This document shows, in pieces, positions 1,478 to 64,000 of a DNA stretch of 64,000 nt. Positions within the stretch are counted from its first letter, which is position 1, and every line of letters begins with the position of its first letter. The notes under the pieces are model-generated. The model did no database searches. It was not told where the DNA came from and saw nothing but the letters and a program-made list of their open reading frames with translations. The stretch is taken from the NCBI RefSeq assembly GCF_013409785.1, contig NZ_JACCBV010000001.1, positions 2,976,001 through 3,040,000 of the forward strand. The letters are read 5' to 3'. The translations under genes and the position numbers were made by a program. This stretch comes from Microbacterium immunditiarum. GTDB taxonomy: Bacteria > Actinomycetota > Actinomycetes > Actinomycetales > Microbacteriaceae.

Positions 1478-1897
1478 GTGAGCACGATTCCGGATACCGG
1501 CGACAGCGCCCGACCGACCGAACAGAGCACCGACGCCGAGCGGCTCTCGCGCTGGGAGGAGCAGGAGCGGGTCGCGGCATCCGCCACCCGCGACATCGCG
1601 GACGTGCCGGCCGTCGAGGTCATCACGACGACAGCCGTGCACCTCATGAGCGCGGCCGCCGTGAAGGTCGGCCTCGCCGACGACCCCGCGTCGCAGCTCG
1701 ACCTCGACGAGGCCCGCAAGCTCATCAACGCCCTCGCGGGCCTCATCACCGCCGGCGCGCCCGAGATCAGCGACATGCACGCGCGTTCGCTGCGCGACGG
1801 GCTCCGGTCGCTCCAGCTCGCGTTCCGCGAGGCATCCGTCATCCCCGACCCGATCGGCAAGGGCCCCGGCGAGAAGTGGACCGGCCCCGTCACCTAG
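1478..1897 (+). CDS. DUF1844 family protein
   Basis: Soluble 139-residue protein of unknown function. The DUF1844 core covers roughly residues 45-110 and includes [18 protein letters not shown] and [15 protein letters not shown]. The first 40 residues are polar and probably disordered. I chose the GTG at 1478, preceded by AGAGAG, because an upstream ATG at 1406 would add 24 residues that match nothing in the family. It is divergent from infC, a common neighbour in actinobacteria. Its stop overlaps the stop of the convergent PLP-decarboxylase gene by 8 bases. Confidence 0.88.
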
Positions 1898-3281
1898 CCG
1901 TGACGGCCGCGAGGCCCCGCCCGACGGCGTCGACCGTGCGCCGCACGGCCTCCGCGTCGGTGGCGAAGTTGCTCACGGCGAACCGCACGACCGTGCGTCC
2001 GCGCCACGTCGACGACGACGCCCAGATCGTCCCCTCCGCGCGCAGCCACTCCCCCAGTGCGGCGGTCGTCTCGTCGTCGCGTGCGGCGAGGCACACTTGC
2101 GTGAAGACGACGTCGTTGAGGACCTCGAGGCCCGGGATCGCCCGGAATCCGTCCGCGAGGGCGGATGCCGCATCCGCCAGCCCTTCGACGAGCCGGCGCA
2201 CGCCGCTGCGCCCGAGCGACCGCAGTGCCGCCCACACCGTGACGCCGCGCGCGCGGCGGGAGAGCTCAGGGGTGCGGTCGTAGGGGTCGGAGATGCTCGC
2301 CACCGCCGGGAGGTACGCGGCGTGCGCGCCGAGCGCCGCCGTCATCGCGGCCTCGTCGCGCACGATCGCGACACCGCAGTCGTACGGCACGTTGAGCGTC
2401 TTGTGCGCGTCCGTCGCCCACGAGTCCGCCCCCGCGAGTCCGCGCACGAGGTGGGCGAAGCGCGGGCTGGCCGCGGCCCACAGCCCGAACGCGCCGTCGA
2501 CGTGCACCCACGCCCCGGCGGCGTGCGCGACCTCGATCGCACGGACGAAGTCGTCGAACGCGCCGGAGTGCACGTCGCCCGCCTGCAGCGCGACGATGGT
2601 CGCGGCATCCGGATCCTCCGCGAGCGCCCGCTCGAGCCCGTCGAGGTCGATGCGCCCCTGGTCGTCGGCGCCCACGGTCTGAGGCGGACCGAGGCCCGCG
2701 AGGCGCCCGGCGAGCACCATCGAGGTGTGCACCTGGTCGCCCGCGAGGAACCGCACGCGCGGCGCCGCCTGCAGTCCGCCCGTCGCGATGTCGAAGCCCT
2801 TCGCGCGCAGCACCGCGTCGCGCGCCGCGATGACGCACGAGAAGTTCGCCATCGTGCCGCCCGTGACGAAGCCGACACCACTCTCGGCGGGTAGCCCGAG
2901 CAGCTCGAGGAGCCACGACGCGGCGACCTCCTCGACGGCCGCGACGGCAGGTGTCGTCTGGCGCGAGCCGTTGTTCTGGTCCCACGCCGACACCAGCCAG
3001 TCCGCCCCGAGTGCCGCGGGATACGCGCCGCCGATCACGAAGCCGAAGAACCGCGGCGAGCCCATCGCCATGAGTCCGTCGCCGGCCGCGGCCGCGAGCT
3101 CGTCGACGACTTCCCGCGCGGGAAGACCTTCGGCGGGCAGGTCCCGCCCGAGCCTCTCCTGCACGCCGTCGACGTCGATCTCGGGGCGCACCGGCCGCTC
3201 CGCCACCGATCCGAGCCACTCCAGCGCGTGACGGTGCGCGGCCTCGAGCGCGTCGCGGCGCTCGTCGTGGATGTCCCCCAT
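1890..3281 (-). CDS. PLP-dependent decarboxylase (group II amino-acid decarboxylase family)
   Basis: Cytosolic pyridoxal-phosphate enzyme related to aromatic-L-amino-acid and glutamate decarboxylases, 463 residues, a normal length. Landmarks: the stacking His in DQVHTSM (about 185), the cofactor Asp in HVDGAFG (262), and the Schiff-base Lys in TDAHKTLNVPYDCG (294). The substrate cannot be read from sequence; many actinobacterial members of this branch are annotated only as aspartate aminotransferase family proteins. ATG at 3281 is preceded by GGAGGG. The gene stands alone between DUF1844 and the his cluster, and its 3' end overlaps DUF1844 by 8 bases. Confidence 0.88.
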   Translation of the reverse strand: MGDIHDERRDALEAAHRHALEWLGSVAERPVRPEIDVDGVQERLGRDLPAEGLPAREVVDELAAAAGDGLMAMGSPRFFGFVIGGAYPAALGADWLVSAWDQNNGSRQTTPAVAAVEEVAASWLLELLGLPAESGVGFVTGGTMANFSCVIAARDAVLRAKGFDIATGGLQAAPRVRFLAGDQVHTSMVLAGRLAGLGPPQTVGADDQGRIDLDGLERALAEDPDAATIVALQAGDVHSGAFDDFVRAIEVAHAAGAWVHVDGAFGLWAAASPRFAHLVRGLAGADSWATDAHKTLNVPYDCGVAIVRDEAAMTAALGAHAAYLPAVASISDPYDRTPELSRRARGVTVWAALRSLGRSGVRRLVEGLADAASALADGFRAIPGLEVLNDVVFTQVCLAARDDETTAALGEWLRAEGTIWASSSTWRGRTVVRFAVSNFATDAEAVRRTVDAVGRGLAAVTAR

Positions 3282-3350
3282 GCTGCCCTCCGGTCCCCGA
3301 TCCTTCGCCCCGCCCGGGCCGACCGCAAGAGGCCGCTTCGGGACGAGTGG

Positions 3351-4241
3351 TCAGGAGGAGCGGACGAGCTTGACCGTGAGCGAGTCGACGAGCACCGCGA
3401 TGCGGTCGTCAGCGGCCCAGCGCTTCGCGAGGCGCTGCAGGACGGCGTCGAGCTCTTCCTGCGTGAGCCCGGCCATGAGGTGCAGGCGCACGATGAGCTC
3501 CTGTCCGCGCAGGCGTCCGGTCGGGTCGCCGGGCTGCACCGACAGATCGATCACCGCGAGCTCGCCCGCGATGCTCGCCTGGAGCGCTGTGTACACCTCG
3601 GGCGAGGTGAACGCCGGCTCCCACGGCTGTCCCTGCGCGATCGCCCACACCGCGGGGCGGCGGATGACGAACTCGGTCTCGGAGCCGGGATCGATCACGA
3701 CGAGGTCGGTGTCGTCGGCGGATGCCGCGAGGGCGACACGCACGCCGTCGGCGGGCACGGGGCGCGCCGACGCGTCCCACCGCGACATCGTCCCGACCGA
3801 CGTGAACACGGGGAGCACACGGCGCCCGTCAGGGGCTGCGACCGTCACGATCGACAGCTCCTGCGTCTTGTCGACGGTCAGCCCGGTGGGCCCGACGCCC
3901 TCGTCGCCCTTCTCGGCGATGAGCGGGATCAGCAGCCGCGCGCTGCGGAACGCGTCGACGATCGCGACCTGGTCGCCCGACCCTTCGCGAAAGGCCACGA
4001 GCGCCGCGAGCAGCGCGGGATCGGCGGAGCCGTCGTCCCCTGAGTGCGGGTTGGGCTGGAAGCTGCGACCCTGCCAGGGAACCCCGGCCGAGTCGGCGGC
4101 GCTGCCGTGCGGGTCCTGGCCTCCGTGGGCGTGGTCGCCCGCGTGGCGGTGGTCGCCGCCGTGGCGGTGGTCGCCGCCGTGGCGGTGGTCGCCGCCGCGG
4201 GGGTCGTCGCCGTCGTGGGCGTGATCAGCCGCCGGCGACAT
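3351..4241 (-). CDS. SseB-family protein with histidine-rich N-terminal repeats
   Basis: 296 residues. Residues from about 75 on match the SseB N-terminal-domain family found downstream of hisA in many actinobacteria, function unknown; recognisable parts are [21 protein letters not shown] and [15 protein letters not shown]. Before this lies a strikingly His/Gly/Asp-rich segment with three exact GGDHRH units plus degenerate ones, which could bind divalent metal. ATG at 4241 is the natural start because the histidine-rich region follows at once; the reading frame is open further upstream inside hisA, but that is antisense noise. The gene starts 17 bases inside the end of hisA, so translation is probably coupled. 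Confidence 0.85.
4125..4214 (-). repeat. 18-bp tandem repeat encoding GGDHRH units
   Basis: Three perfect 18-bp copies (4143-4160, 4161-4178, 4179-4196) are flanked on both sides by degenerate copies. Each perfect copy encodes Gly-Gly-Asp-His-Arg-His in the sseB-like gene. Exact DNA identity between units suggests recent slippage, so copy number may vary between strains. Confidence 0.9.
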
Positions 4242-4971
4242 CCAGCGCCTCGGTGAGGGTGAAGGCGCCCGTGTACAGGGCCTTCCCGACGATAGCGCCC
4301 TCGACGCCGAGCGGCACGAGCTCGCGCAGGGCCGCGATGTCGTCGAGGCTCGAGACCCCGCCCGACGCGACGATGGGCTTGGGGGTGCGCGAGGTGATCT
4401 CGCGCAGGAGGTCGAGGTTCGGTCCGCGCAGCGTGCCGTCCTTCGTGACATCCGTCACGACATAGCGGCTGCAGCCGGCCTCCTCGAGACGCTTGAGCAC
4501 GGTCCACAGATCGCCGCCCTCGCGCGTCCAGCCGCGCGCTGCGAGCGTCGTGCCCCGCACGTCGAGGCCGACCGCGACGACGTCGCCGTAGCGGCTGATG
4601 ACGTCGGCCGCCCACTCGGGGTTCTCCAGGGCGGCGGTTCCGAGGTTGATGCGCGCGGCGCCGATCTCGAGCGCGGTCTCGAGCGAGCGGTCGTCACGGA
4701 TGCCGCCCGAGAGCTCGACCTGCACGCCCTTGACCTGGCGGATGACTTTGCGCAGGACGCTCGAGTTGCTGCCGCGGCCGAACGCCGCGTCGAGGTCGAC
4801 GAGGTGGATCCACTTCGCACCCTGGCGAGCCCACTGCTCGGCGGCGTCGACGGGGTCGCCGAAGCTCGACTCGGTGCCGGCCTCCCCTTGCGTCAGTCGC
4901 ACCGCCTTGCCGTCGGCGACGTCGACGGCGGGAAGCAGGATCAGTTCGGGCGTTGACGCGAAATCGTTCAT
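4225..4971 (-). CDS. hisA: Phosphoribosyl isomerase A (bifunctional HisA/TrpF type)
   Basis: (beta/alpha)8-barrel enzyme converting ProFAR to PRFAR in histidine synthesis. In actinobacteria this protein, PriA, usually also does the TrpF step of tryptophan synthesis. 248 residues. Catalytic and phosphate-binding segments are visible: [42 protein letters not shown] and [10 protein letters not shown]. The spacing of these motifs matches PriA of mycobacteria; dual activity is inferred. ATG at 4971 has GAGGAG only two bases upstream, an unusually tight spacing. It follows hisH closely and its end overlaps the SseB-like gene. Confidence 0.95.
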
Positions 4972-5035
4972 GGCTCCTCGTGCGGGCGACGGGTGCGGGG
5001 CGAGCGCGAAAGGGCTGCCCCCGGTGGGCACGAGG

Positions 5036-5689
5036 TCAAAGGCTACGCCCGCCCAGCCCGCCGATCCAATTGGAGAGGAGACGGATGCCTGCTGCCCCCG
5101 ACTTCTCGGGGTGGAACTGCGTCGCCGACAGCGGCCCGTTCTCGACCGCGGCGAGGAACGGCTGCCGCCCGTACGAGCACCACGTGAGGATGGGCTGCGG
5201 GAAGGGCGCCTGCGGCTCCATCGACCAGTGCTGTGCGCCGAAGGAGTGGACGAAGTAGAACCGCTCGTTCTCGATGCCGCGGAACAGCCGCGTGCCCTCG
5301 CCGGCCTCGACCGTGTCCCAGCCCATGTGCGGAAGCACCGGTGCGTCGAGCTCGGTCACGGCGCCCGGCCACTCGCCCATGCCCTCGGTGTCGGCGCCGC
5401 GCTCGACGCCGTGCTCGAACAGCACTTGCATGCCGACGCAGATGCCGAGCACGGGACGCCCGCCCGCGAGGCGACGGCCGATGAGCTCATCGCCGCGCTG
5501 CGCGCGGAGCGCGTCCATCACCGCGCGGAACGCACCGACGCCGGGCACGACGAGCCCGTCGGCGTCGAGGATGACGCCGCGGTCGGACGTCAGCCGGGCA
5601 TCCGCCCCCGCCGCCTGCAATGCCTTCACGGCGGAGTGGACATTGCCCGAGCCGTAATCGAGGACCGCGACCAGGGGTCGGTCGGTCAC
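5036..5689 (-). CDS. hisH: Imidazole glycerol phosphate synthase, glutamine amidotransferase subunit
   Basis: Class I glutaminase subunit that feeds ammonia to HisF in histidine synthesis. 217 residues. The nucleophile Cys84 is in GICVGMQ, and the His/Glu pair is in QFHPEKS near residue 193; VVPGVGAF forms the oxyanion strand. The start is GTG at 5687-5689, overlapping the TGA of hisB (GTGA), so the two are translationally coupled. hisF is not in this window; hisA follows 64 bases downstream. Confidence 0.96.
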
Positions 5690-6297
5690 AGCGCGCCCTT
5701 CGTGCTCGGAATACCCTCCACGCTCGGGTCGAGCGCCTTGGCCTGGCGGAATGCCCGCGCGAACGCCTTGAACTCGGCTTCGGCGATGTGGTGCGGGTCG
5801 CGCCCGCCGAGCACCGTCACATGGACGGTGAGTGCCGCGTTGAACGCGATCGCCTCGAACGCGTGACGCACGAGCGAGCCCGTGAAGTGGCCGCCGATGA
5901 GGTGGAGCTCGAAGCCCGCCGGCTCGCCGGCGTGGACGAGGTACGGGCGGCCGCTGATGTCGACCACGGCCTGCGCGAGAGCCTCGTCGAGCGGCACGAG
6001 AGCGTCGCCGTACCGGGCGATCCCGGACTTGTCGCCGAGCGCCTGCCGGATCGCCTGGCCGAGCACGATCGATACGTCCTCGACGGTGTGGTGCACGTCG
6101 ATCTCGGTGTCGCCCGAGGCGCGCACGGTGAGGTCGGTGAGCGAGTGCTTGGCGAACGCCGTCAGCATGTGGTCGAAGAACGGGACGGTCGTGTCGATGC
6201 GGCTGCGGCCGGTGCCGTCGAGGTCGAGCTCGAGCTCGACGGTCGATTCGCTCGTCGCGCGACGCAGCGAGGCGGTGCGGTTTGCTGCGCCGGTCAT
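5686..6297 (-). CDS. hisB: Imidazoleglycerol-phosphate dehydratase
   Basis: Mn-dependent dehydratase of histidine synthesis, 203 residues, monofunctional (no histidinol-phosphatase domain as in E. coli HisB). Metal-binding histidine motifs are visible: [17 protein letters not shown], and the second-half repeat [15 protein letters not shown] with [13 protein letters not shown]. The ATG at 6297 overlaps the hisC stop (ATGA). A longer open frame exists upstream but is antisense noise inside hisC. Confidence 0.97.
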
Positions 6298-7379
6298 GAG
6301 GCCGATCCTACCGAGGCCAGGGCATCGAGGAACGCGGTCGTCTCGTCTTCGGTGCCCGCCGTCACGCGCAGGTGGTGCGGGATTCCGACGTCGCGCACGA
6401 GGATGCCGCGCTCGTACAGCGCGTGCCATGTCGCTGCGCTGTCTTCGACCCCGTTGAAGAGGACGAAGTTGGTCCACGACTCGTACGGGCGATAGCCGAG
6501 CGCCTCGACGGTCGCCGAGATGCGGTCGCGCTGCGCGACGATCTCGTCGACCATGCGGAGCATCGTCGGGGCGTGGTGGAGCGCCGCCGTCGCGGCCGCC
6601 TGGGTGAGGGCGCTCAGGTGATACGGAAGGCGTACGAGGCGGAGCGCGTCGATGAACGCGGGATCGGCGGCGAGATAGCCGACGCGGGCGCCCGCGAACG
6701 CGAACGCCTTGCTCATCGTGCGCGAGACGACGAGCCGCTCTCGACCCGGCAGCAGAGTGAGCGCGGACCGCTCGTCGTGCGGCGCGAATTCCTGGTACGC
6801 CTCGTCGACGATGACGATGCCGTCTGTCGCGTCGTAGACCGCCTCGACCACGTCGAGCGGAAGGGGCGTGCCCGTGGGGTTGTTCGGGGCGCACAGGAAG
6901 ACGACATCGGGCGCCGCGGCCTCGACCTGTGACGCGGCGTCGGCGGGGTCGAGGGTGAAGTCGTGGCCACGCGTGCCCGCCGTCCAGGTGGCGCCGGTGC
7001 CGCGCGTGATGATCGGGTACATCGAGTACGTCGGGGCGAAGCTGAAGGCCGTGCGCCCCGGACCGCCGAACGCCTGCAGGATGTGCTGCAGCACCTCGTT
7101 CGAGCCGTTGGCGGCCCAGATCTGATCGCGTGTGAGGCCGTGCCCGAGGTAGTCGGCGAACGCCTCGCGAAGCGGCGTGAACTCGCGGTCGGGGTACCGG
7201 TTGACATCGCGCAGCGCACGGGCGACCGAGTCGAGGATGTCGTCGGCGACCTCTTGCGGGACGGGGTGCGTGTTCTCGTTGACGTTCAGCGCCACCGGAA
7301 GCGGCGCCTGCGGCGCGCCGTACGGCTTCTGGCCGCGGAGGTCGTCACGTAGAGGGAGGTCATCGAGGCTGGCGCTCAC
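6294..7379 (-). CDS. hisC: Histidinol-phosphate aminotransferase
   Basis: PLP aminotransferase of histidine synthesis, 361 residues with the GTG start at 7377-7379. Key segments: [10 protein letters not shown], the cofactor Asp in [10 protein letters not shown], and the Schiff-base Lys in [21 protein letters not shown] at 7388, three codons earlier, is possible, but it overlaps a -10-like TACGAT (7387-7392) that ends seven bases before the GTG, which fits a leaderless GTG start. It is the first his gene visible, followed by overlapping hisB and hisH. hisD, often adjacent, is absent here. Confidence 0.94.
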
Positions 7380-7386
7380 CCGTCCC

Positions 7387-7392
7387 ATCGTA
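7387..7392 (-). promoter_or_regulatory. -10 element for a leaderless hisC transcript
   Basis: TACGAT on the minus strand ends seven bases before the GTG start at 7379. No convincing -35 is present. If used, the mRNA would begin at or next to the start codon. Confidence 0.4.
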
Positions 7393-7403
7393 GAGCGCGC
7401 GCG

Positions 7404-7763
7404 TCAAGGCGCCGTCGCGTACTGAGCCGGGATGGCCAGTTCCTGCCCCGCGGAGATGACCACGCCGTCGAGCGCGTTCAGCCGCACGATCGCGTCGACG
7501 ACGTCGCGCGGGTCGGCGCTGGGCGCGATCTCCAGGGCGATCGCCCACAGCGTGTCGCCCGGCTCGACCGTGACTGTCGCGAACCCGCCGGCAGGCACCC
7601 CTTCGTCGCGCGACGCGAGCGCGGAGCCCCCGCCGATGATCGCGAATGCGAGGGCGATGACCGCGGGCAGCGCGGCGAGCGTCGCGAGGACCCGGCGACC
7701 GCGCACTGTGAGGCGCAGGCGCGTGACAGGAGCTGCGGGTGCGGGAACGGTGATCGCGCTCAT
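7404..7763 (-). CDS. LysM membrane protein, probable SOS cell-division inhibitor (YneA/DivS/ChiZ type)
   Basis: 119 residues: a short basic N-terminus, one transmembrane segment (about 29-50) and an extracellular LysM domain (about 65-115; VTVEPGDTLWAIALEIAP and ISAGQELAIP) that should bind peptidoglycan. Small LysM membrane proteins divergent from lexA in other Gram-positives (YneA in Bacillus, DivS in Corynebacterium, Rv2719c in mycobacteria) delay division during DNA damage. The position next to lexA and a LexA operator over its promoter support the same role, which remains inferred. The ATG at 7763 has AGGAGG just upstream. Its leader contains a perfect 15-bp inverted repeat. Confidence 0.85.
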   Translation of the reverse strand: MSAITVPAPAAPVTRLRLTVRGRRVLATLAALPAVIALAFAIIGGGSALASRDEGVPAGGFATVTVEPGDTLWAIALEIAPSADPRDVVDAIVRLNALDGVVISAGQELAIPAQYATAP

Positions 7764-7784
7764 GGGTCCTCCTGTGCGGTGGGA

Positions 7785-7832
7785 AGAGATTCGCATCCGA
7801 CACTCGGCCGGGAGGGCCGGATGCGAATCTCT
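7785..7832 (-). repeat. Perfect 15-bp inverted repeat in the LysM gene leader
   Basis: Arms 7785-7799 and 7818-7832 (AGAGATTCGCATCCG and its exact complement) flank an 18-base spacer. It lies between the LysM promoter and its ribosome site, so the mRNA would carry a very stable hairpin about 20 bases before the start codon. No U-tract follows. It could be a regulatory stem or a binding site for a dimeric protein; function unknown. Confidence 0.85.
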
Positions 7833-7836
7833 GTAC

Positions 7837-7851
7837 CGAACGTATCTTCGA
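7837..7851. promoter_or_regulatory. LexA operator (SOS box)
   Basis: CGAACGTATCTTCGA matches the actinobacterial LexA site CGAAC-N4-GTTCG with one mismatch. It overlaps the -10 region of the LysM promoter and is about 190 bases from the lexA start. The recA operator at 26647-26661 differs from it at a single position. Confidence 0.85.
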
Positions 7852-7867
7852 TGCTGTAGTGTGTCAA
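7839..7867 (-). promoter_or_regulatory. Promoter of the LysM gene
   Basis: On the minus strand a perfect -35 TTGACA (7862-7867) is followed after 17 bases by -10 TACGTT (7839-7844). The LexA box covers the -10, so LexA binding should block RNA polymerase directly. Confidence 0.8.
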
Positions 7868-8037
7868 GTGCGGTGTCGAGGCCGGATCGTTCGAAAGACG
7901 ACACGCCCGCCACGTGTCCGGCGAACACGTCGCAACCGGATACGGTTTCGACAAGAGCACCCCACCACAGGGCTCCGACATTCGAATACCGCTGCACCCC
8001 GCGATGCAGGCCGAGCGCGTGAGACAGGAGCACGAAG

Positions 8038-8721
8038 ATGACCGACGCGACCACCGGGCGCGAGAAGCCCCAGACGCGCCGCCGCAAGAGCCTGAGCGAG
8101 AAGCAGCTCGCGATCCTCGAGGTGATCCAGCGATCGATCGCCCGCCACGGCTACCCGCCGAGCATGCGCGAGATCGGCGACGCCGTGGGGCTGAAGTCGC
8201 TTTCGAGCGTGACCCACCAGCTCAACCAGCTCGAGCTGAGCGGCTACCTGCGGCGCGACGCCGGCAAGACCCGCGCGCTCGAAGTGCTCATCGATCTGCC
8301 CGGCACCGCCGCCGAGAACCCGGCGGACACAGCTCCCCCGGTCGGCGACGCGGCGCTCGTGCCTCTCGTCGGCCGCATCGCCGCGGGCGTGCCCATCACC
8401 GCCGATCAGCAGATCGAAGAGATCTTCCCCCTCCCCCGCCAGCTCGTCGGCAAGGGCGATCTGTTCATGCTCAAGGTCAGCGGCGACTCGATGCTCGACG
8501 CCGCGATCTGCGACGGCGACTGGGTGGTCGTCCGCTCGCAGAACACCGCTGAGAACGGAGACATCGTCGCCGCCATGCTCGACGGCGAGGCCACCGTCAA
8601 GACCTTCCGCCGCCGCGACGGCCACACGTGGCTGCTCCCCCGGAACTCCGCGTTCGAACCCATCCTCGGCGACGAGGCCGTCGTGCTCGGCAAGGTCGTC
8701 GCGGTGCTGCGAGCCGTCTGA
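8038..8721 (+). CDS. lexA: LexA repressor
   Basis: SOS repressor that self-cleaves when RecA is activated on single-stranded DNA. 227 residues: winged-helix DNA-binding domain (about 18-85, with [20 protein letters not shown]), then a peptidase S24 domain. The cleavage bond Ala116-Gly117 is in RIAAGVPI, the catalytic Ser151 in [10 protein letters not shown] and Lys188 in EATVKTF. AGGAG lies eight bases before the ATG. It is divergent from the LysM gene; the only strong LexA box in the shared region is nearer the LysM gene, so autoregulation may act at a distance or through a weaker site. Confidence 0.97.
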
Positions 8722-8884
8722 CCTACGGAGGCGATCCCCTCACCCTCTCGGGGTGTCACGCGTGCGGCACCGCGCGGCGGCCGCTAGTGTGAGCCTCGTC
8801 GGCCGCGCCCACGCACAGGCGCGGTCCGCCGGGCGGGGTTCTCGCGTCCGACACGGCGCGGGCAGCCGAGAGGTGGGTGGGACC

Positions 8885-53693: not shown

Positions 53694-53708
53694 TCCGCCG
53701 CGCCGGCG

Positions 53709-54599: not shown

Positions 54600-54679
54600 G
54601 AGACAGACATAGCGGTCTGCGCGCGCGAGCGCAACGGCGGGCGACGGATGCTACGGAGCCGGTGCCCCCGTGCGGTCGC

Positions 54680-55951: not shown

Positions 55952-55953
55952 GA

Positions 55954-57183: not shown

Positions 57184-58190
57184 TGTGCTCCTTCGTTCTG
57201 GACGGTGTCGGCGTGAGCGGGCACTCGTGCCGGCGCACGCCCGCGAGTCCCATCGGCTCCCGCTGCACGCGGCGCCGAGGCGCGCCCGGCGCGCGCAAGG
57301 CCGCGGAGGAAGAACGCGCCCACCACGACGATGTAGCCGAGCCACGCGATGACCTGCAGCCACGTCATGACGGGCATGAAGCCCACCGTCGCCTGGAGCA
57401 CGGCGGCGAGCGGGCCGCCCGGCGGAACCGCCTGCGACACGTCGAACGCCCAGCCGAACGGGAACGCCGCCCATCCGACGGCTACCGCTCCGGTGGCCGG
57501 GTCGATCGGCGCTGCGCCAGTGAACGGCCCGGGGAGCGCGCCGGCCTCCTGCAGGTCGTGGATCGCGTAGGCGAGCACGCCTGCGGCGACGATCACGAGG
57601 AAGGCGCCCGTCCACGCGAAGAAGCGGCGCAGGTCCAGGCGCACCATGCCCTTCGCCAGGAGCCAGCCGACGACGATGGCCGCGAGGATCCCGAGCAGCG
57701 CCCCGATGAGCGCGGACGGGGCGTCGCCGAACGATTGCACCATCGACCACAGCAGCAGGGTGGTCTCGATGCCCTCGCGCGCGACCGACACGAAGCCGAT
57801 GACGACGACGCCCCACAGTCCCCCGGTCGCGAGCGCGCGATCGACGCCCTGCTCGAGCGACGCCTTCATCGTGCGCGCGGTGCGCTGCATCCAGAAGATC
57901 ATCCACGTCACCATCGCGACCGCGAGCAGCGACAGGAGGCCGCCGATGAGCTCCTGCGCCTCGAACGTCAGCGTGTAGGCGCCGAAGGTCAGGACCGCGC
58001 CGATCGCGAGCGCCAGCGCGGCCGCGAGCCCGACGCCCATCCACAGGCGCGGGAGCACGTCGCGCCGGCCGATGCGGCTGACGTAGGCGACCAGGATGCC
58101 GACGACGAGCGCGGCTTCGAGGCCCTCGCGGAGACCGATCAGGAAGGTGGCGAGCACGGGTGCGGCAATCCAGGTTGGGGCGGGGGGCAT
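57180..58190 (-). CDS. efeU: Iron permease EfeU (FTR1 type)
   Basis: 336 residues, seven transmembrane helices. The two REGLE-type iron motifs are present as GLREGLEAAL and AREGIETTL, so it should transport ferric iron. The C-terminal tail is Ala/Arg-rich. ATG at 58190 lies within five bases of the DtxR box, which overlaps the promoter. First gene of efeUOB. Confidence 0.95.
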   Translation of the reverse strand: MPPAPTWIAAPVLATFLIGLREGLEAALVVGILVAYVSRIGRRDVLPRLWMGVGLAAALALAIGAVLTFGAYTLTFEAQELIGGLLSLLAVAMVTWMIFWMQRTARTMKASLEQGVDRALATGGLWGVVVIGFVSVAREGIETTLLLWSMVQSFGDAPSALIGALLGILAAIVVGWLLAKGMVRLDLRRFFAWTGAFLVIVAAGVLAYAIHDLQEAGALPGPFTGAAPIDPATGAVAVGWAAFPFGWAFDVSQAVPPGGPLAAVLQATVGFMPVMTWLQVIAWLGYIVVVGAFFLRGLARAGRASAPRAAGADGTRGRAPARVPAHADTVQNEGAQ

Positions 58191-58195
58191 CCGCC

Positions 58196-58214
58196 TTAGG
58201 TAAGGCGAACCTCA
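58196..58214. promoter_or_regulatory. DtxR/IdeR iron box before efeU
   Basis: TTAGGTAAGGCGAACCTCA matches the consensus iron box TTAGGTTAGGCTAACCTAA at 16 of 19 positions. It is five bases from the efeU ATG, so iron-loaded DtxR/IdeR should shut the operon off when iron is plentiful. Confidence 0.88.
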
Positions 58215-58243
58215 CAAACCGTATCTCCCGCTCCCACCTCGGA

Positions 58244-58687
58244 TCAACTCGGGAGGGGCAGCTTTCTCGCCTCGCGGGACACCCACACCACCAGGAGCGC
58301 CAGGAGGATGACGTCCGCGGCGATGTAGCCGTAATGCAGGAACGAGGGGCCGGGGTCGCCGCCCTCGATGATGATGTCGCTGCGCGCGCTGAGGAGCGGC
58401 CGGATCAGGAGCGTCTGCACCGCGAGCACGACCCACATCGCGCCGATCATCGCCCACGCCGCGCGGTCGACGCGCGGGCGCGGCACCGCGAGCGCGGTGA
58501 TCGCCACGAGCAGCACCCACCCCGCGATCGCCAGCGCGGTGAAGACGAGGCGCCCGATGCCGAGCCCGAGCGGGAGCGTGATACCCGGCGCCTCGAACTT
58601 TAGCGGAGTCTCGATGAAGGACAGCCCCAGCACAAGTCCGAACCACACCGCGGGCACGACGAGACGGAGTACGACGACAGAGCGCAT
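58244..58687 (-). CDS. Small integral membrane protein
   Basis: 147 residues, four transmembrane segments. The conserved-looking stretch is GLSFIETPLKFEAPGI with LGLGIGRLVFTAL, seen in DUF4149-like or similar families of unknown function. The ATG at 58687 lies exactly six bases from TACCGT, so the gene is probably leaderless. Divergent from the oxygenase gene. Confidence 0.78.
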   Translation of the reverse strand: MRSVVVLRLVVPAVWFGLVLGLSFIETPLKFEAPGITLPLGLGIGRLVFTALAIAGWVLLVAITALAVPRPRVDRAAWAMIGAMWVVLAVQTLLIRPLLSARSDIIIEGGDPGPSFLHYGYIAADVILLALLVVWVSREARKLPLPS

Positions 58688-58693
58688 GGCCCC

Positions 58694-58699
58694 ACGGTA
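58694..58699 (-). promoter_or_regulatory. -10 element for leaderless membrane gene
   Basis: TACCGT on the minus strand ends exactly six bases before the ATG at 58687. Confidence 0.45.
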
Positions 58700-58739
58700 A
58701 CGCCGGGCAACATTCGAGCGCTCGGGCATCGACCGTGCC

Positions 58740-58745
58740 TATTCT
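58740..58745 (+). promoter_or_regulatory. -10 element for leaderless oxygenase gene
   Basis: TATTCT ends exactly six bases before the ATG at 58752. Confidence 0.5.
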
Positions 58746-58751
58746 CGGCGC

Positions 58752-59786
58752 ATGAGCGACCTGAGCCTGCCGATCCTCGATCTCTCCCTGCTCGACCGAG
58801 GCCCTGAGGGGGCCGCGCGGTTCCGCGACGAGCTGCGGGCCGCGACCCACGACGTCGGCTTCTTCTACCTCTCGGGTACGGGTGTGACACGCGGGCTCGA
58901 GGCACGCCTGCACCGCGCCGCGCGCGACTTCTTCGCGCTGCCCGAGCCCGACAAGCTCGCGATCGAGAACGTCAACAGCCCGCACTTCCGCGGGTACACG
59001 CGCATCGGCGGCGAGCGCACGCAGGGCAGGGTCGACTGGCGCGAGCAGATCGACATCGGGCCCGAGCGCGAGGCGATCGATGATCCGGATGCCCCCGACT
59101 TCGCGCGCCTCATCGGCCCGAACCTGTGGCCCGAGGCCCAGCCCGAGCTGCGCGAGGTCGTCTCGGAGTGGCACGACCACCTCTCCGGCGTCGCGCGCAG
59201 GCTGCTGCGCGCGTGGGCGCTGTCGCTCGGCGCGCCCGAGACGTACTTCGACGAGCACTTCGGCGAGCCCTCCACGCTCATCAAGATCGTCCGCTACCCC
59301 GGCAAGGAGGACCCGACACCCCAGCAAGGCGTCGGCGCCCACAAGGACTCGGGCGTGCTCACGCTCCTGTGGATCGAGCCCGGCAAGGGCGGCCTGCAGG
59401 TCGAGCGGGATGGCGAGTGGGTCGACGCTCCCCCGGTGCCCGGCGCCTTCGTCGTCAACATCGGCGAGATGCTCGAGTACGCGACACAGGGGTATCTCAT
59501 CGCCACCAAGCACCGGGTGACCTCGCCGCGCTCCCCCGACGACCGCATCTCGGTGCCGTTCTTCTTCAACCCCGCGCTCGACAAGCGGCTCCCCCTCATC
59601 GAGCTGCCGCCCGAGCTCGCCGCGCGGGCGCGCGGGGTCACGCACGACCCGTCGAACCCGATCCACTCGCTGTACGGCGAGAACGCCCTCAAGTCCCGCC
59701 TGCGCGCGCACCCGGACGTCGCCGAGCGCTGGCACTCCGACCTGCTCGCGGCGCGGGCCGCGGCATCCGGTTCCGCCACCGCCTGA
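58752..59786 (+). CDS. Isopenicillin-N-synthase-like 2-oxoglutarate/Fe(II) oxygenase
   Basis: 344 residues, double-stranded beta-helix. Iron ligands His197 and Asp199 (GAHKDSG) and His254 (TKHRV), with Arg265 (DDRISVPFFF) to bind the co-substrate carboxylate. IPNS proper lacks 2-oxoglutarate; this protein keeps Arg-x-Ser, so a 2-oxoglutarate enzyme is more likely. Substrate unknown. Probably leaderless and divergent from the membrane gene. Confidence 0.9.
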   Translation: MSDLSLPILDLSLLDRGPEGAARFRDELRAATHDVGFFYLSGTGVTRGLEARLHRAARDFFALPEPDKLAIENVNSPHFRGYTRIGGERTQGRVDWREQIDIGPEREAIDDPDAPDFARLIGPNLWPEAQPELREVVSEWHDHLSGVARRLLRAWALSLGAPETYFDEHFGEPSTLIKIVRYPGKEDPTPQQGVGAHKDSGVLTLLWIEPGKGGLQVERDGEWVDAPPVPGAFVVNIGEMLEYATQGYLIATKHRVTSPRSPDDRISVPFFFNPALDKRLPLIELPPELAARARGVTHDPSNPIHSLYGENALKSRLRAHPDVAERWHSDLLAARAAASGSATA

Positions 59787-59838
59787 GGCCGTCCCGAACG
59801 AAGCGCGCGCGGCGCGTCGATCCGCTGCCGAGCGGGCG

Positions 59839-60297
59839 TCAGTGCGGGTGCGTCCCCGACAGCGCGTGACGCATGCGCGTGAGCGTCGCCGCGAACGCCG
59901 TCACCTGGTCGCGCGTCATACCGGCGAGCATCTCCGCCTCGATCACGGCGACGGGACCCGCGAGGGCCTCGAGCACGGTGCGGCCCTCCTCAGTGATCGA
60001 GATGAGGTTCTGCCGACGGGAGGCAGGGTCGCGGCGGCGTTCGACGAGCCCTCGCGCCTCGAGCGCTCCGACGAGCTGCGCCATCGACTGCAGGCGGACG
60101 AAGGAGTTCCGCGCGAGACGCGCCGCCGTCAGGCCGGGGTTGCGTGCGAGGACCGCGAGGGCGGTGTACTGCACGCTCGTGATCCCGTGCGCCTGGACCA
60201 CCTCGTCCAACCGCGACTTCGCCGCCAGCTCGAGCTGCTTGATGAGGTACAGCAGAGGCGGCTCGGCGGGCGGCAGCGCTTCGGGACTCGGCGTCAC
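59839..60297 (-). CDS. MarR-family transcriptional regulator
   Basis: 152 residues, winged helix: GITSVQYTALAVLARNPGLT, ARLARNSFVRLQSMAQLV and the wing RRRDPASRRQNLISITEEG (quoted in part) are MarR-like. GTG at 60297 with GGGAAGGGGGAT upstream. Divergent from the aldehyde dehydrogenase gene, whose start region contains a perfect palindrome. Confidence 0.9.
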   Translation of the reverse strand: MTPSPEALPPAEPPLLYLIKQLELAAKSRLDEVVQAHGITSVQYTALAVLARNPGLTAARLARNSFVRLQSMAQLVGALEARGLVERRRDPASRRQNLISITEEGRTVLEALAGPVAVIEAEMLAGMTRDQVTAFAATLTRMRHALSGTHPH

Positions 60298-60343
60298 CGA
60301 TCCCCCTTCCCTGGTGCGGCGTCGACCGTCGTGGCAGACGTGC

Positions 60344-60371
60344 GATAATGGCGAAACTCAGGTTACCTGAG
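60344..60371 (+). promoter_or_regulatory. Aldehyde dehydrogenase promoter with MarR operator
   Basis: -10-like GATAAT (60344-60349) is followed from 60357 by the perfect palindrome CTCAGGT-T-ACCTGAG (60357-60371), which covers the start of transcription. It is probably the MarR operator and would control both divergent genes. Confidence 0.65.
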
Positions 60372-60430
60372 GATTTCCGAACGCGCGGCGTTCGGCGCCA
60401 ACGTTACGTGCATCTCGATGAGGAGAAGAC

Positions 60431-61912
60431 ATGACCGACACGATGCTCGCGATCGCCACCGGAAGACTGTTCATCGGCGGCGAGTGGCGCGAATCCTCCA
60501 GCGGCGAGCGCCACGACGTCGTCACCCCCGCCACGGGCGAGAAGATCGCGGATGTCGCGTGGGCCACCGTCGACGACGTCGACGCGGCGGCCACGGCCGC
60601 ACGAGCCTCGTTCGAGAGCGGTGTGTGGTCGGGCCTCTCGGGCCGGGAGCGCGCCCGCGTGCTCCTCCGCGTCGCCGCCCTCATCCGCGAGCGCGCCGAG
60701 GAGCTCGCGCAGGCCGAGAGCGCCGACGTGGGCAAGCCCATCCTGTTCGCGCGCGTCGTCGACGTGCCGACGGTGGCCGAGACGTTCGAGTACTACGCGG
60801 CACTCGCCCAGACCGGCGAGGGCGCGCTGCGCGACACGACGCTCGCGGCGTTCCAGTACACGGTGCGCGAGCCGATCGGCGTGGTCGGCGCGCTCACGCC
60901 GTTCAACTTCCCGCTCATCCTCGCGGCGTCGAAGATCGCGCCGGCGCTCGCGGCGGGCAACTCGATCGTGCACAAGCCCGCCGAGGACACTCCTCTGTCC
61001 GCCGTGATCCTCGCGCAGATCTTCGCGGATGCCGGTCTGCCCGACGGCGTCTACAACCTCATCACCGGCGTCGGCCCCGCGCTCGGCGAGCGCATCGTCG
61101 AGCACCCCGAAATCGACATGGTCGCGTTCACCGGCTCGACGGCGGTCGGATCGAAGGTCGCCGCGAAGGCGGGCGAGCTGCTCAAGCCCGTCATGGTCGA
61201 GCTCGGCGGAAACGGTGCGAACATCGTGTTCGCCGACGCCGACATCGACTCCGCCGTCAACGCGACGATCAACGCCTTCGTGTTCAACTCCGGCCAGTTC
61301 TGCATGGCAGGGGTGCGCCTGCTCGTCCAGCGCGAGCTCCACGACACGTTCCTGCAGATCCTGTCGCAGGCCGTCCCCCACGTGCCGATCGGGCGCATCG
61401 ACGACATGGGCACGATCATCGGCCCGCTCGTGTCGCAGCGGCACCTCGACCGCGTGAGCGGGTTCGTCGAGCGCGCGAAGGCCGAGGGCGGGACGGTCGT
61501 CGTCGGCGGGGAGCGCATCGACCTCGACGGCGGCTACTACTACTCGCCCACGATCATCGCGGGGCTGCCGAACGACGCCGAGGCCGTGCAGGAGGAGGTG
61601 TTCGGCCCGGTCCTCACGGTGCAGACGTTCGACACCGAGGAGGAGGCGATCGCGCTCGCGAACTCGACGCGCTACGGACTCGCGATGGGCATCCAGACGT
61701 CCGACATCGTCAAGGCGATGCGCGTCTCGAAGAAGCTCGAGGCGGGCCTCATCTGGGTCAACGAGTGGGGCAAGCTCGACCCCACGCTGACCTTCGGCGG
61801 CGTCAAGAACTCCGGCTTCGGCCGCGAGAACGGCCCCGAGGCCCTCCACCACTACACGCGCACGAAGTCCGTCGTCATCGCGACTCCCGCCCCCGCACCC
61901 GAGGCCCCCTGA
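60431..61912 (+). CDS. NAD(P)-dependent aldehyde dehydrogenase
   Basis: 493 residues. Catalytic Cys291 (NSGQFCMAG), general base Glu257 (VMVELGGNGAN), Asn158 (TPFNFPL) and Lys182 (VHKPAED) are all present. Substrate is not readable. AGGAG is seven or so bases before the ATG. A 66-base palindrome and the rpsO terminator follow. Expression is probably relieved from MarR by an aldehyde or related ligand. Confidence 0.93.
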   Translation: MTDTMLAIATGRLFIGGEWRESSSGERHDVVTPATGEKIADVAWATVDDVDAAATAARASFESGVWSGLSGRERARVLLRVAALIRERAEELAQAESADVGKPILFARVVDVPTVAETFEYYAALAQTGEGALRDTTLAAFQYTVREPIGVVGALTPFNFPLILAASKIAPALAAGNSIVHKPAEDTPLSAVILAQIFADAGLPDGVYNLITGVGPALGERIVEHPEIDMVAFTGSTAVGSKVAAKAGELLKPVMVELGGNGANIVFADADIDSAVNATINAFVFNSGQFCMAGVRLLVQRELHDTFLQILSQAVPHVPIGRIDDMGTIIGPLVSQRHLDRVSGFVERAKAEGGTVVVGGERIDLDGGYYYSPTIIAGLPNDAEAVQEEVFGPVLTVQTFDTEEEAIALANSTRYGLAMGIQTSDIVKAMRVSKKLEAGLIWVNEWGKLDPTLTFGGVKNSGFGRENGPEALHHYTRTKSVVIATPAPAPEAP

Positions 61913-61940
61913 GCCGAGGCGGTCCGGCGACGTGCCCGCG

Positions 61941-62006
61941 GTAGGAGATGGTGCGGGCGCAGGACGCCGGATGCGGCATCCGTCCTGCCCTCGCGTCATC
62001 TCCTAC
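61941..62006. repeat. 66-base imperfect palindrome
   Basis: Outer arms GTAGGAGATG (61941-61950) and CATCTCCTAC (61997-62006) match exactly; inner arms GCAGGACG and CGTCCTGC match, and the centre holds GGATGC/GCATCC around a G. It is much longer than a simple terminator and includes the dispersed octamer. It may be a REP-like element or a two-stage terminator. Confidence 0.75.
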
Positions 62007-62040
62007 ACCGGACCCGCGCCGGGCGCTCCACGCAACGGTG

Positions 62041-62070
62041 AAGGCCGCCCCCACACCTGGGGGCGGCCTT
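62041..62070. terminator. Bidirectional terminator between aldehyde dehydrogenase and rpsO
   Basis: Perfect 13-bp stem (arms 62041-62053 and 62058-62070; AAGGCCGCCCCCA and complement) with a 4-base loop CACC. Strong GC stem with TT at one end, placed between convergent aldehyde dehydrogenase and rpsO. Confidence 0.85.
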
Positions 62071-62105
62071 CCAAGAATGTTTTGCGCGATTGAACGCTGG
62101 TCGCG

Positions 62106-62375
62106 TTATCGGCGGAGTCCGAGACGCTCGATCAGCTTGCGGTAACGCTCGATGTCGATGTCCTGGAGGTAGCCGAGCAGACGACGGCGCTGACCGACGA
62201 GCAGGAACAGCCCACGACGCGAGTGGTGGTCGTGCTTGTGCTCCTTGAGGTGCTCGGTCAGGTCCTTGATGCGCTGCGTCAGCATCGCGACCTGCACCTC
62301 GGGGGATCCGGTGTCACCGGGGTGCGTCGCGTACTCTTCGATGATCGCCTTCTTGACCTCTGCATCCAGTGCCAT
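62106..62375 (-). CDS. rpsO: 30S ribosomal protein S15
   Basis: 89 residues, complete. It binds the 16S rRNA three-way junction and is conserved: [45 protein letters not shown] (quoted in parts) and [12 protein letters not shown]. Here it is alone, about 17 kb from pnp; in many bacteria rpsO and pnp are adjacent. Transcribed from the promoter at 62431-62458. Confidence 0.98.
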
Positions 62376-62430
62376 AAAGTGATCCCCTTCCTCGTCGTTG
62401 CGCGGCGCCCGACGCCCTCTGCGTGAGCTC

Positions 62431-62458
62431 TCTTTATCCGCGGCCGATCTAACGGCAA
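62431..62458 (-). promoter_or_regulatory. Promoter of rpsO
   Basis: Minus strand: -35-like TTGCCG (62453-62458), 16-base spacer, -10-like TAAAGA (62431-62436). The leader would be about 50 bases. Confidence 0.5.
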
Positions 62459-62559
62459 CCTGAAGAGTCTACCAGCGTCGGAGACGGACTCGGAATCGAG
62501 CGGATCCGGCGTCCCGATGGGCGAGGATGGGGCCGGGTACCTGCGCCGCTGCGCGCAGG

Positions 62560-62565
62560 TAGCCT
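62560..62565 (+). promoter_or_regulatory. -10 element for DUF167 gene
   Basis: TAGCCT ends seven bases before the GTG at 62573, again with no ribosome site. Confidence 0.45.
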
Positions 62566-62572
62566 CGATCGA

Positions 62573-62794
62573 GTGAAGTACACGGTGCGCGTCAAGCCGG
62601 GCAGCCGCAAGGGCCCGCTGGTGGAGGCATCCGCCGACGGCCTCACCGTGTACGTGCGCGAGCGCGCCGTCGACGGGGCCGCCAACGCGGCCGTCGTCCG
62701 GGTGCTCGCCGACCACTTCGGCGTCGCGCCGCGCCGCGTCGAGATCGTGGGCGGCCACTCGTCGCGCATCAAGCGCGTCGAGGTCGACGAGTGA
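62573..62794 (+). CDS. DUF167 (YggU-like) protein
   Basis: 73-residue protein of the DUF167/YggU family, function unknown. VRVKPGSRKGPLVE, DGAANAAVVRVLADHFGV and GHSSRIKRVEV are the conserved segments. The GTG start is probably leaderless. The TGA overlaps the MFS start (GTGA), so the MFS gene is coupled. Confidence 0.9.
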   Translation: MKYTVRVKPGSRKGPLVEASADGLTVYVRERAVDGAANAAVVRVLADHFGVAPRRVEIVGGHSSRIKRVEVDE

Positions 62795-64000
62795 GCGGCA
62801 CCGGACAGAGGCGGATGCCCCGACTCCGCCGCGACCACCTGATCGACCTGCGCCCGCTCACGACGAGCCCCGCGTTCGCACGCCTGTGGATCGGCTCGAC
62901 GCTCGCGGGGCTGGGCGGGCAGCTCACGATCGTCGCGGTGATGCTCCACGTTTACGAGCTGACGCAGGACACGTTCGCCGTGTCGATGGTCGCCGTCTTC
63001 GGGCTCGTTCCGATGATCTTCGCGGGCCTCTACGGCGGCATGCTCGCGGATGCCTTCGACCGGCGTCTCGTGGCGCTGCTGGCCGCCGTGGTCACGTTCG
63101 CGTCGACGGTGCTGCTCGCGGTGCTCGCGTGGACGCAGCAGGAGACCGTCGCGTGGCTCTACGCGCTCAGCGCGGTGAACTCGGCCGCGAACTCGATCGT
63201 CATGACGACGCGCGCCGCGATCGTGCCGCGCCTCATCCCGCGTGACCTGCTGCCGGCCGCGGCCGCGCTCCAGGGCATCACGATCGGCATCATGATCATG
63301 GCCGGTCCCGCCCTCGCAGGCGTGCTCGTCGCGTTCGCGGGCTACGCGTGGACGTACTCGATCGACGTCGTTCTGATGCTGTCGCTCTTCCTCGGCCTGT
63401 GGGCTCTGCCCAGCATCCGCCCCGAGGGCGAGATCGTGCGACCGGGCCTCGAGTCGCTCAAGGACGGCTGGCGCTTCCTCAAGCGGGCGCCGAACATCCG
63501 CATGCAGTACATCCTCGACATCGTCGCGATGACATTCGGGAACCCCCTCGCGCTGTTCCCCGCGGCCGGCGCGGTGCTGCTGGGCGGTGGCTCGATCACG
63601 ACCGGTGCGCTGACCGCGGCGGTCGCGGCGGGTGCGTTCCTGTCGAGCCTCTTCTCCGGCCCGATCGGCCGCGTGCGGCACCATGGCATCGGCATCCAGC
63701 GTGCGATCCAGGTGTACGGGGCCGCCACGGTGCTGTTCGGCCTCGTCCTGGGCGCGGGCGCGCTGGGCTGGTTCGCTCCCCCGACGGTAGACGCGACGCA
63801 TCCGAACATCGCCCTCATCGTCCTGGCGTGCGCGGCCCTCGCGATAACGGGCGCCGCCGACAACGTGAGCTCGATCTACCGGTCGACGATGATGCAGGCC
63901 GCCGTCCACGATGCGGTGCGCGGGCGCCTGCAGGGCATCTTCACGGTCGTGGTCGCGGGCGGTCCGCGTGTCGGCGCGCTCTACGCGGGCACGCTCGCGA
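62791..64000 (+). CDS. MFS transporter, 5' part (cut by window edge)
   Basis: At least 403 residues with about ten transmembrane segments in view. LRPLTTSPAFARLWIGSTLA and GGMLADAFDRRLVALLAA (motif A type) indicate an MFS of the enterobactin-exporter/ENTS-like branch. The GTG at 62791 overlaps the DUF167 stop. The frame is open to the right edge, so the 3' end is not seen. Confidence 0.9.
   Translation, partial: MSGTGQRRMPRLRRDHLIDLRPLTTSPAFARLWIGSTLAGLGGQLTIVAVMLHVYELTQDTFAVSMVAVFGLVPMIFAGLYGGMLADAFDRRLVALLAAVVTFASTVLLAVLAWTQQETVAWLYALSAVNSAANSIVMTTRAAIVPRLIPRDLLPAAAALQGITIGIMIMAGPALAGVLVAFAGYAWTYSIDVVLMLSLFLGLWALPSIRPEGEIVRPGLESLKDGWRFLKRAPNIRMQYILDIVAMTFGNPLALFPAAGAVLLGGGSITTGALTAAVAAGAFLSSLFSGPIGRVRHHGIGIQRAIQVYGAATVLFGLVLGAGALGWFAPPTVDATHPNIALIVLACAALAITGAADNVSSIYRSTMMQAAVHDAVRGRLQGIFTVVVAGGPRVGALYAGTLA

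Follow-up and report, generated by a model that had tools for sequence, protein, structure and literature searches.

An octamer, CGGATGCC (reverse complement GGCATCCG), is over-represented in the chromosome of Microbacterium immunditiarum, at a density of about one copy per kb. It resembles a self-recognition tag, perhaps one for DNA uptake; a DNA uptake sequence is the most likely reading, which we favour tentatively.

Copy number and distribution

The window, i.e., the whole 64-kb stretch of DNA that was analysed, contains 76 copies, 38 in each orientation, whereas 5.4 are expected from order-0 composition. This recount agrees with the original prediction of about 75 copies against roughly five, near equal in the two orientations. 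The span given there (1577-63060) was roughly right and differs slightly from the exact first and last starts (1576 and 63047).

1576..63054, both strands: stretch with all 76 octamer copies, exact positions; 63 of the 76 in called genes
2162..63054, + strand: 38 copies of CGGATGCC, exact match; starts 2162, 3719, 4697, 5082, 10242, 10831, 11483, 11945, 13094, 13109, 15238, 15595, 18824, 20480, 20865, 30594, 30928, 31824, 33975, 35634, 37010, 37779, 39018, 41627, 42148, 44755, 47485, 49023, 51380, 51798, 54912, 55168, 55417, 57141, 59086, 61026, 62812, 63047
1576..62633, - strand: 38 copies (= GGCATCCG on +), exact match; starts of GGCATCCG 1576, 1831, 2604, 5597, 8887, 8989, 10264, 10707, 11382, 12141, 13517, 15848, 18093, 19285, 20168, 21762, 22545, 25243, 30418, 33171, 35036, 37281, 38081, 39750, 39928, 39958, 41905, 42239, 44895, 47501, 48623, 50297, 52523, 54449, 58186, 59762, 61975, 62626

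The enrichment extends beyond the window. The whole genome (3,906,867 bp) carries 3,914 copies, split 1982/1932 between the strands, versus 97 of the reversed word.

The over-representation is confirmed under several null models. In the window plus 20 stretches (464 kb), 443 copies were seen versus 60 expected under an order-3 Markov model, for which CGGATGCC is the top 8-mer, and 132 under an order-4 model. Genes were called with a simple in-house finder (422 genes, 85% coding). They hold 352 copies, whereas two synonymous-codon shuffles gave 54.8 (sd 7.7) and 56.2 (sd 4.9), and the octamer is the most over-represented 8-mer in called genes under both. The window genes alone hold 63 copies versus 11.2 expected from synonymous shuffling. 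A maximum-order Markov model of the window expects 73.7 copies, which is uninformative because the model is fitted on 7-mers within the octamer itself. An artefact of composition, low-order Markov structure or codon use is thus ruled out by the order-3 and order-4 models and the codon shuffles. The original prediction had named two outcomes that would refute it: a higher-order Markov or codon-pair model that accounts for the count, which did not come true with these models and shuffles, and a lack of enrichment beyond the window, which the genome-wide count contradicts.

Core, tail and codon registers

The core is sharp. Under the codon nulls, most single-base neighbours occur near expectation, whilst CGGACGCC, a synonymous neighbour, falls short of it with 65 copies versus 114-138 expected. 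CGGATGCC is followed by a weaker, degenerate 3' tail with a preference for GCG.CC, in which C at +9 and C at +12 stand out most. The two main codon registers show a similar tail, as do copies outside genes, which, together with the codon-preserving nulls, bears out the claim that the DNA word and not a peptide is kept. In the explanation we favour, the octamer forms the strict core within a longer genomic self-recognition word, CGGATGCC plus the preferred GCG.CC, whose density stays near one copy per kb outside low-GC stretches.

Several reading frames are used, as had been claimed. The 443 copies fall into the registers xCG-GAT-GCC (138), xxG-GCA-TCC-G (131), GGC-ATC-CG (44), CGG-ATG-CC (9) and others (30), and 91 lie outside called genes. 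The GGC-ATC-CG copies, however, look like background, since the tail is absent and 44 of the 51 permitted places are occupied. GCA is indeed rare (8.9 per 1000 codons versus 71.5 for GCG), and TCC only moderately so (11.4 versus 26.8 for TCG).

Dialects among relatives

Among the sampled genomes of the order, strong enrichment of the octamer is confined to Microbacteriaceae; 239 genomes of other families show at most 4.0-fold enrichment. Relatives carry sister words around GGAT, namely GGATGGCC, GGATGCTG, CGGATGCG, GGATCCG and CAGGATCC, and perhaps GGAGGCG as a further one. A word with a GGAT or GGAGGC core reaches a codon-null z of at least 5 in 16 of the 31 sampled genomes, the GGAGGC words retaining only GGA of the core. 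Whole-genome counts were made for two dialects. The CGGATGGCC dialect, made by an inserted base, occurs in 2 of 119 Microbacterium, and the Agromyces word has a similar tail. Species of one genus can carry different words, i.e., words switch within genera. CGGATCCG is another dialect word of relatives. A literature search covering titles, abstract openings and few subscription papers returned no description of such a word in Actinobacteria.

Low-GC stretches, phages and site turnover

After codon correction, three stretches with a GC content of 66% show an excess of 1.9-2.6-fold; in 17 other pieces it is 3.3-12.4, and one further piece reaches 30. These low-GC, octamer-poor stretches are apparently acquired DNA. 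Four partial Microbacterium phage genomes (95 kb) carry 9 copies versus about 9.5 expected.

Conservation of individual sites is weak. With codon matching, GAT is kept at 0.37-0.52 inside the word and at 0.32-0.42 in the closest control, where it has the same peptide context but is not part of the word. Without codon matching, retention in four identity bins is 0.278, 0.305, 0.346 and 0.667 for the word, 0.280, 0.337, 0.442 and 0.580 for one-mismatch neighbours, and 0.198, 0.245, 0.313 and 0.423 for other 8-mers with two A/T. The word is thus not retained above its neighbours in three of the four bins and shows some excess in the last. In the codon-matched comparison, retention of the whole word in the bin of greatest divergence (0.133) does not exceed its gain at word-lacking sites (0.130); in the xDA register, a position that lacks the word in one genome often has it in another (0.13-0.17). 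It seems to be the density of the word that matters, and its individual positions little.

A DNA uptake sequence as the most likely reading

The original prediction noted a resemblance to uptake sequences, HIP1, Chi or a methylation site. Uptake fits best (unproven), HIP1 fits poorly and Chi fails on polarity. Like the Neisseriaceae DUS, the octamer has thousands of copies and a strict core, and related words surround an invariant core; there too, one dialect (wadDUS) arose by base insertion and some members have none (excerpts of PMC3630211). It is abundant on both strands (352 copies versus 55-56 in genes), and its genome-wide count falls inside the range of 943-5918 copies given for Neisseriaceae dialects in the same excerpts. 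Its host differs, being an actinobacterium and not Gram-negative; the core is a GC-rich 8-mer, and uptake function and receptor are putative here.

Genes for uptake and translocation are present, yet such genes also occur in word-free genomes. Homologues of comEA and comEC score over domain cut-offs, including a PF03772 match over its cut-off, and below the NCBIfam full-length cut-offs (comEA, ComEC/Rec2). The genome has two tad loci, one with a small Flp-like pilin. This set resembles that of Micrococcus luteus, where transformation needs ComEC as well as genes from two tad clusters (PMC4322843, whose main text does not use the term 'uptake sequence'); competence in this Microbacterium is putative. 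PilM, a marker of the type IVa pilus, was not found in this genome (97 of 199 family genomes have it), and a type IVa pilus was therefore rejected as the reader.

None of the tested genes covaries with the word in the family genomes, and uptake is therefore the best reading and not a result. ComEC occurs in 195 of the 199 family genomes, word-free ones among them. An impression from 43 genomes that Tad/T2SSF covaries with the word was not upheld in 199: T2SSF counts fail to split word-rich from word-poor genomes, with 0 matches in the word-rich G060 and one weak match each in the word-rich G064, G100 and G171. Among the genomes with at most two T2SSF matches, 24 (about half) were examined, and all had a strong T2SSE match, as did two Microbacterium added as controls. 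Some pilus machinery therefore exists with and without the word, and the label 'pilus-lacking' for low-T2SSF genomes is contradicted.

We infer both that an uptake machine reads the word and which protein might do so. The transformation machinery (Tad/Flp pilus, ComEA, ComEC) would have a component, at the surface or in the membrane, that prefers word-bearing DNA, and kin DNA would then be preferentially taken up and recombined. Because of this preference, word-bearing alleles would spread by uptake drive. Sister words with the GGAT core in relatives would limit exchange between species. That Actinobacteria possess uptake-sequence dialects, switching within genera and read by a Tad/Flp-ComEA/ComEC machine, is a plausible extension, put forward with somewhat greater reserve.

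To our knowledge, only two families, both Gram-negative, have established uptake sequences. If the uptake machinery reads the word, this would be the first such system beyond them; sequence-specific uptake would have arisen in a Gram-positive phylum and would hinder recombination between species of Microbacteriaceae. Sequence alone would then suffice to predict, across the family, natural competence and which groups exchange genes.

Orientation and alternative readings

The octamer shows no replication polarity, as 417 of 834 copies (864 kb) are co-oriented. It shares abundance and short length with FtsK-orienting polar sequences (KOPS) and differs in not being polar; skew towards dif on both arms was not seen, and KOPS was rejected. 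The earlier argument against an FtsK motif, made from strand balance in the window, thus holds over 864 kb. GGGGGAG is the polar word in this genome. The ftsK gene lies within the window at 28654-31398, and FtsK relatives place the genome in Microbacterium.

The main rival, which we consider unlikely, is a Chi-like signal, at which an end-loaded AdnAB helicase-nuclease would change mode and start RecA-dependent repair; the native genome would favour copies, which foreign DNA would lack. Of 43 genomes, 42 have two or more PF12705 matches and G062 has one, in line with AdnA plus AdnB, but such matches are equally common in word-free genomes. The octamer is, like Chi, an asymmetric 8-mer (PMC8022716, in excerpt); its excess is genome-wide and smaller in low-GC, apparently acquired stretches, a pattern that may correspond to over-representation in a core genome. 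The extra base preference mainly on one side also suits such a signal. Polarisation is one criterion for Chi candidates in that excerpt; it is missing here, adjacent copies lying on opposite strands in 446 cases versus 347 on the same strand, and classical Chi was rejected. Furthermore, the octamer is denser than E. coli Chi (1 per 5 kb), and its words switch within genera whereas Chi is well conserved in Enterobacteriaceae (same excerpt). Should AdnAB read the word, that enzyme family would have a Chi-like word with unusually rapid drift. In both cases, species whose words differ can be compared, and the dialects thereby allow a direct test of what reads the word.

It is also rather unlikely that the octamer is a dense site for a DNA-binding protein of the nucleoid, of chromosome organisation or of regulation, or else a HIP1-like word without an assigned use. 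A position-free site would suit the near-exponential spacing, the balance between strands and the spread over the whole genome, and core plus tail resemble one protein footprint; switching between species of one genus would be unexpected for a global architectural protein, and no candidate emerged among the families examined here. HIP1 of cyanobacteria is a palindrome that is very abundant in coding DNA on both strands. The octamer is likewise an abundant short word of coding DNA on both strands, but it has dialects and a tail on one side only, and a HIP1-like identity fits poorly because the octamer is asymmetric and not palindromic.

It is improbable that a DNA methyltransferase or modification system recognises the word and that its sites became enriched. 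The word contains GGATG, which known modification enzymes read, but modification sites are not usually over-represented as an 8-mer with a tail, and GGATG is not kept in the dialects GGATCCG, CAGGATCC and GGAGGCG. A by-product of mutation or repair bias without selection, suggested by the high turnover and the depletion of CGGACGCC, is very improbable, as CGGACGCC has lost far fewer copies (49-73) than the word has gained (about 296), most other single-base neighbours are near expectation and low-GC stretches of the same cell show little excess.

Close pairs

Pairs within 45 bp favour the order CGGATGCC..GGCATCCG (26 pairs; the remaining orders number 6, 4 and 2). The bias towards this order was not seen in 11 other genomes (8 versus 9, same-strand 16), and inverted-pair hairpins were rejected as a general trait. 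DUS inverted pairs serve as terminators. Half of the 26 inverted pairs lie in gaps at most 86 bp from a gene 3' end (13), 13 lie inside genes and 0 in divergent gaps. The window holds the following close pairs.

10242..10271, both strands: inverted pair CGGATGCC-N14-GGCATCCG, in the + gene 8873-10327, near its 3' end
47485..47508, both strands: inverted pair CGGATGCC-N8-GGCATCCG, within a called gene
13094..13116, + strand: direct pair, starts 15 bp apart

Abundance and excess over composition and codon usage

The window holds 38 copies of CGGATGCC and 38 of its reverse complement GGCATCCG. This exact count over 64 kb, 76 copies against 5.4 expected from composition, bears out the original count of about 75 copies, near-equal in orientation, against roughly five expected. 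The enrichment extends to the whole genome (3,906,867 bp, single contig), in which the window spans 2,976,001-3,040,000, with 1,982 + 1,932 copies of the word against 58 + 39 of the reversed word. The closest named relatives of its FtsK are from Microbacterium, which makes Microbacteriaceae the probable identity of the family sampled below. The window is typical of the chromosome: 31 of 40 sampled 20-kb stretches carry 15-31 copies, four carry 11-13, and the remaining five (GC 66-67%) carry 1-10. The first ~160 kb of the record resembles a large acquired or atypical region; G000:C1:1-164000 (L001, L190, L191) is octamer-poor, with 6, 1 and 2 copies in three sampled 20-kb stretches at GC 66-67%.

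The excess also holds under Markov and codon-preserving nulls. Across the window and 20 stretches (464 kb), an order-3 model expects 60 copies against 443 observed, making the word the top-scoring 8-mer of all, and an order-4 model expects 132. The 422 genes (392,865 bases) called by our own simple gene finder contain 352 copies, against 54.8 (sd 7.7) expected from within-gene synonymous shuffling and 56.2 (sd 4.9) when codon-border bases are also preserved. The word ranks first among 8-mers under both codon nulls, and the majority of its single-base neighbours lie close to expectation. Last-base variants are 2.1-2.7-fold above it, and CGGACGCC (65 observed, 114-138 expected) and CGGAGGCC (41 observed, 56-95 expected) are depleted.

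Registers, tail and close pairs

Genic copies fall mostly in two registers, xCG-GAT-GCC (n = 138) and xxG-GCA-TCC-G (n = 131), in which the word is present at 31-33% of protein-permitted positions. The third, GGC-ATC-CG (n = 44), looks like background. The two main registers and 90 non-genic copies share a tail preference for G at +8, C at +9, G at +10, C at +12 and C at +13; compared with CGGACGCC in matching classes, where the control has 10-19 copies per class, the contrast is clear at C +9 and C +12 and partial elsewhere. Gaps between copies are near-exponential, with a mean of 911 bp. Among close pairs (at most 45 bp), the order CGGATGCC..GGCATCCG occurs 26 times and the other orders 6, 4 and 2 times. 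Thirteen of these 26 pairs lie within called genes and the other 13 in convergent or tandem gaps, at most 86 bp from a gene 3' end; none occupies a divergent gap.

Strand polarity

GGGGGAG is nearly unidirectional from ~0.8 to 2.54 Mb and runs mostly in the opposite direction farther on, as expected of an FtsK-orienting word. Its switch, between 2,541,892 and 2,547,892 of G000:C1 (this genome), likely marks the dif region. When the chromosome arms are set by this switch, with an origin taken to lie opposite at about 0.6 Mb, 150 of 169 GGGGGAG sites are co-oriented, partly by construction since the arms were set from its own switch. The octamer is without polarity on these arms (417 of 834 co-oriented). 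An origin-free test agrees, with 347 adjacent copies on the same strand and 446 on opposite strands, and the original argument that balanced strands speak against an FtsK polarity motif thus stands.

GGGGGAG, a candidate FtsK-orienting word for Microbacterium, occurs 0 times forward and 17 times reverse within the window, and lies under codon expectation here (67 in genes against 116). Either CGGGGGAG or GGGGGAG ranks high among codon-null words in G153, G221, G032, G074, G060 and G102.

Sister words in Microbacteriaceae

Across 199 family genomes (85 genera), the ratio of the word to its reversed control spans 40-fold, in this genome, to below 1. Counts were confined to one order: 239 genomes from 19 other families have a median ratio of 1.6 and a maximum of 4.0, whereas 19 family members of the same draw range from 2.6 to 40, with 16 above 7.

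Family members poor in the word often carry a sister word. Among 31 genomes sampled at 40-200 kb each under a codon null (threshold z ≥ 5), 16 have a word with a GGAT or GGAGGC core: CGGATGCC, GGATGGCC, GGATGCTG, GGATGCGG/CGGATGCG, CGGATGCT/GGATGCGC, GGATGCCT, GGATCCGC, CAGGATCC, CCGGATCA or GGAGGCGG. Five give a weak signal (G105, G120, G060, G206, G074), and G108 and G177, weak singly, reach 5.5 for GCGGATCG when pooled. No word with either core stood out in the samples of G067, G070, G087, G081, G071, G221, G102 and G076. Core-less words also reach z 5 in a few samples (G067, G081, G091, G153, G032 and the G108 + G177 pool), and isolated weak dialect cases are therefore unreliable. A 40-kb sample is small: G120, weak there, has 3,032 copies of CGGATGCC genome-wide against 106 of the control.

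Two of the dialects are confirmed by counting whole genomes. Of 119 Microbacterium genomes, 2 are strongly enriched in CGGATGGCC (536/516 copies, with 21/13 for the control, and 376/405, with 15/17). GGAGGCGG is 2.1-2.8-fold above its reversed control in two g57 genomes and one g77 genome, and at 0.9-1.2 in the genus mates G092, G181 and G234. In 22-kb loci, GGATCCG is found in named Microbacterium, among them M. gubbeenense, M. excoecariae and M. nanhaiense. In the 22-kb loci of M. oxydans and neighbours (L069, L075, L076, L087, L088, L061, L082, L083), 0 of 12 panel words pass z 2.5; this group has either lost the word or uses a different one.

Scarcity and turnover

Codon-corrected excess is 2.6-, 1.9- and 2.0-fold in the stretches L001, L009 and L012 (GC 66%), 3.3- to 12.4-fold in 17 other pieces, the window included, and 30-fold in one piece with almost zero expectation. 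In 95 kb from four partial Microbacterium phage genomes there are 9 copies against ~9.5 expected, though the counted word may not be their hosts' dialect.

Conservation was compared with codon matching among word-rich relatives, in the three better-filled divergence bins. GCA is retained at 0.28-0.47 inside the word and 0.09-0.14 elsewhere, and GAT at 0.37-0.52 inside, 0.22-0.27 elsewhere and 0.32-0.42 in the same peptide context outside the word. For the xDA register, retention of the complete word is 0.13-0.35; codon triples that have GAT outside the word give 0.06-0.09, and those that have the common GAC give 0.16-0.34. Without codon matching, retention over one-mismatch neighbours is not raised in three of four identity bins. 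Gain at word-free places is 0.13-0.17 (xDA) and 0.02-0.09 (AS). Because retention is weak and the word is gained at word-free places, sites are turning over, and density is maintained more than position.

Possible function and candidate readers

The word may be a DNA uptake sequence, a tentative reading in which both the function and the reader are putative. Uptake sequences, as described in PMC3630211, fit better than any other known kind. The resemblance lies in the strict core and degenerate tail, strand balance, non-polarity and density, in the low frequency of the word in DNA that looks acquired, in the hairpin pairs of this genome and, most of all, in the existence of dialects built on one core. 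A Chi-like role, with AdnAB as reader, is unlikely, since co-orientation at 417 of 834 sites departs from the polarity set out for such words in PMC8022716. Dense protein binding or a role like that of HIP1 seems improbable to a similar degree, and a methylation site or mutation bias is less probable still.

None of the genes tested covaries with the word. PilM, present in 97 of 199 family genomes, is missing here, and T2SSF counts fail to distinguish word-rich from word-poor genomes. ComEC occurs in 195 of the 199 genomes of the family. For PF12705, of which AdnAB should give two matches, 42 of 43 genomes have at least two and the remaining genome has one. T2SSE has a strong match in all 26 rechecked genomes, 24 of which have at most two T2SSF matches.

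Homologues of comEA and comEC are adjacent in this genome, under full-length NCBIfam cut-offs and over domain cut-offs; the comEC frame as called continues into a holA-like part. There are two tad loci. The first, next to a gene with topA-like opening residues, encodes a 74-aa Flp-like pilin along with two TadE-type proteins and a TadA that scores above the cut-off of TIGR03819; the second encodes a TadA-like ATPase under that cut-off. The small pilin genes are:

L245:7583-7807, Flp-like pilin gene of a tad locus
L246:9772-9963, Flp-like pilin gene of a tad locus

Similarity between the two pilins is not significant (E 0.36). Judged by eye, the 74-aa pilin resembles M. luteus Flp, whose sequence is given in PMC6370729. 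Transformation of M. luteus depends on ComEC together with genes in two tad clusters (PMC4322843).

In G032, a Microbacterium with the CGGATGGCC dialect, the PF12705 findings concern two regions:

G032:C1:375555-379942, PF12705
G032:C1:1847084-1847740, PF12705

The PF12705 match is split in one long frame, the adjoining frame has an internal TGA, and the best match is elsewhere, an arrangement that offers a lead for coevolution of AdnAB and dialect.
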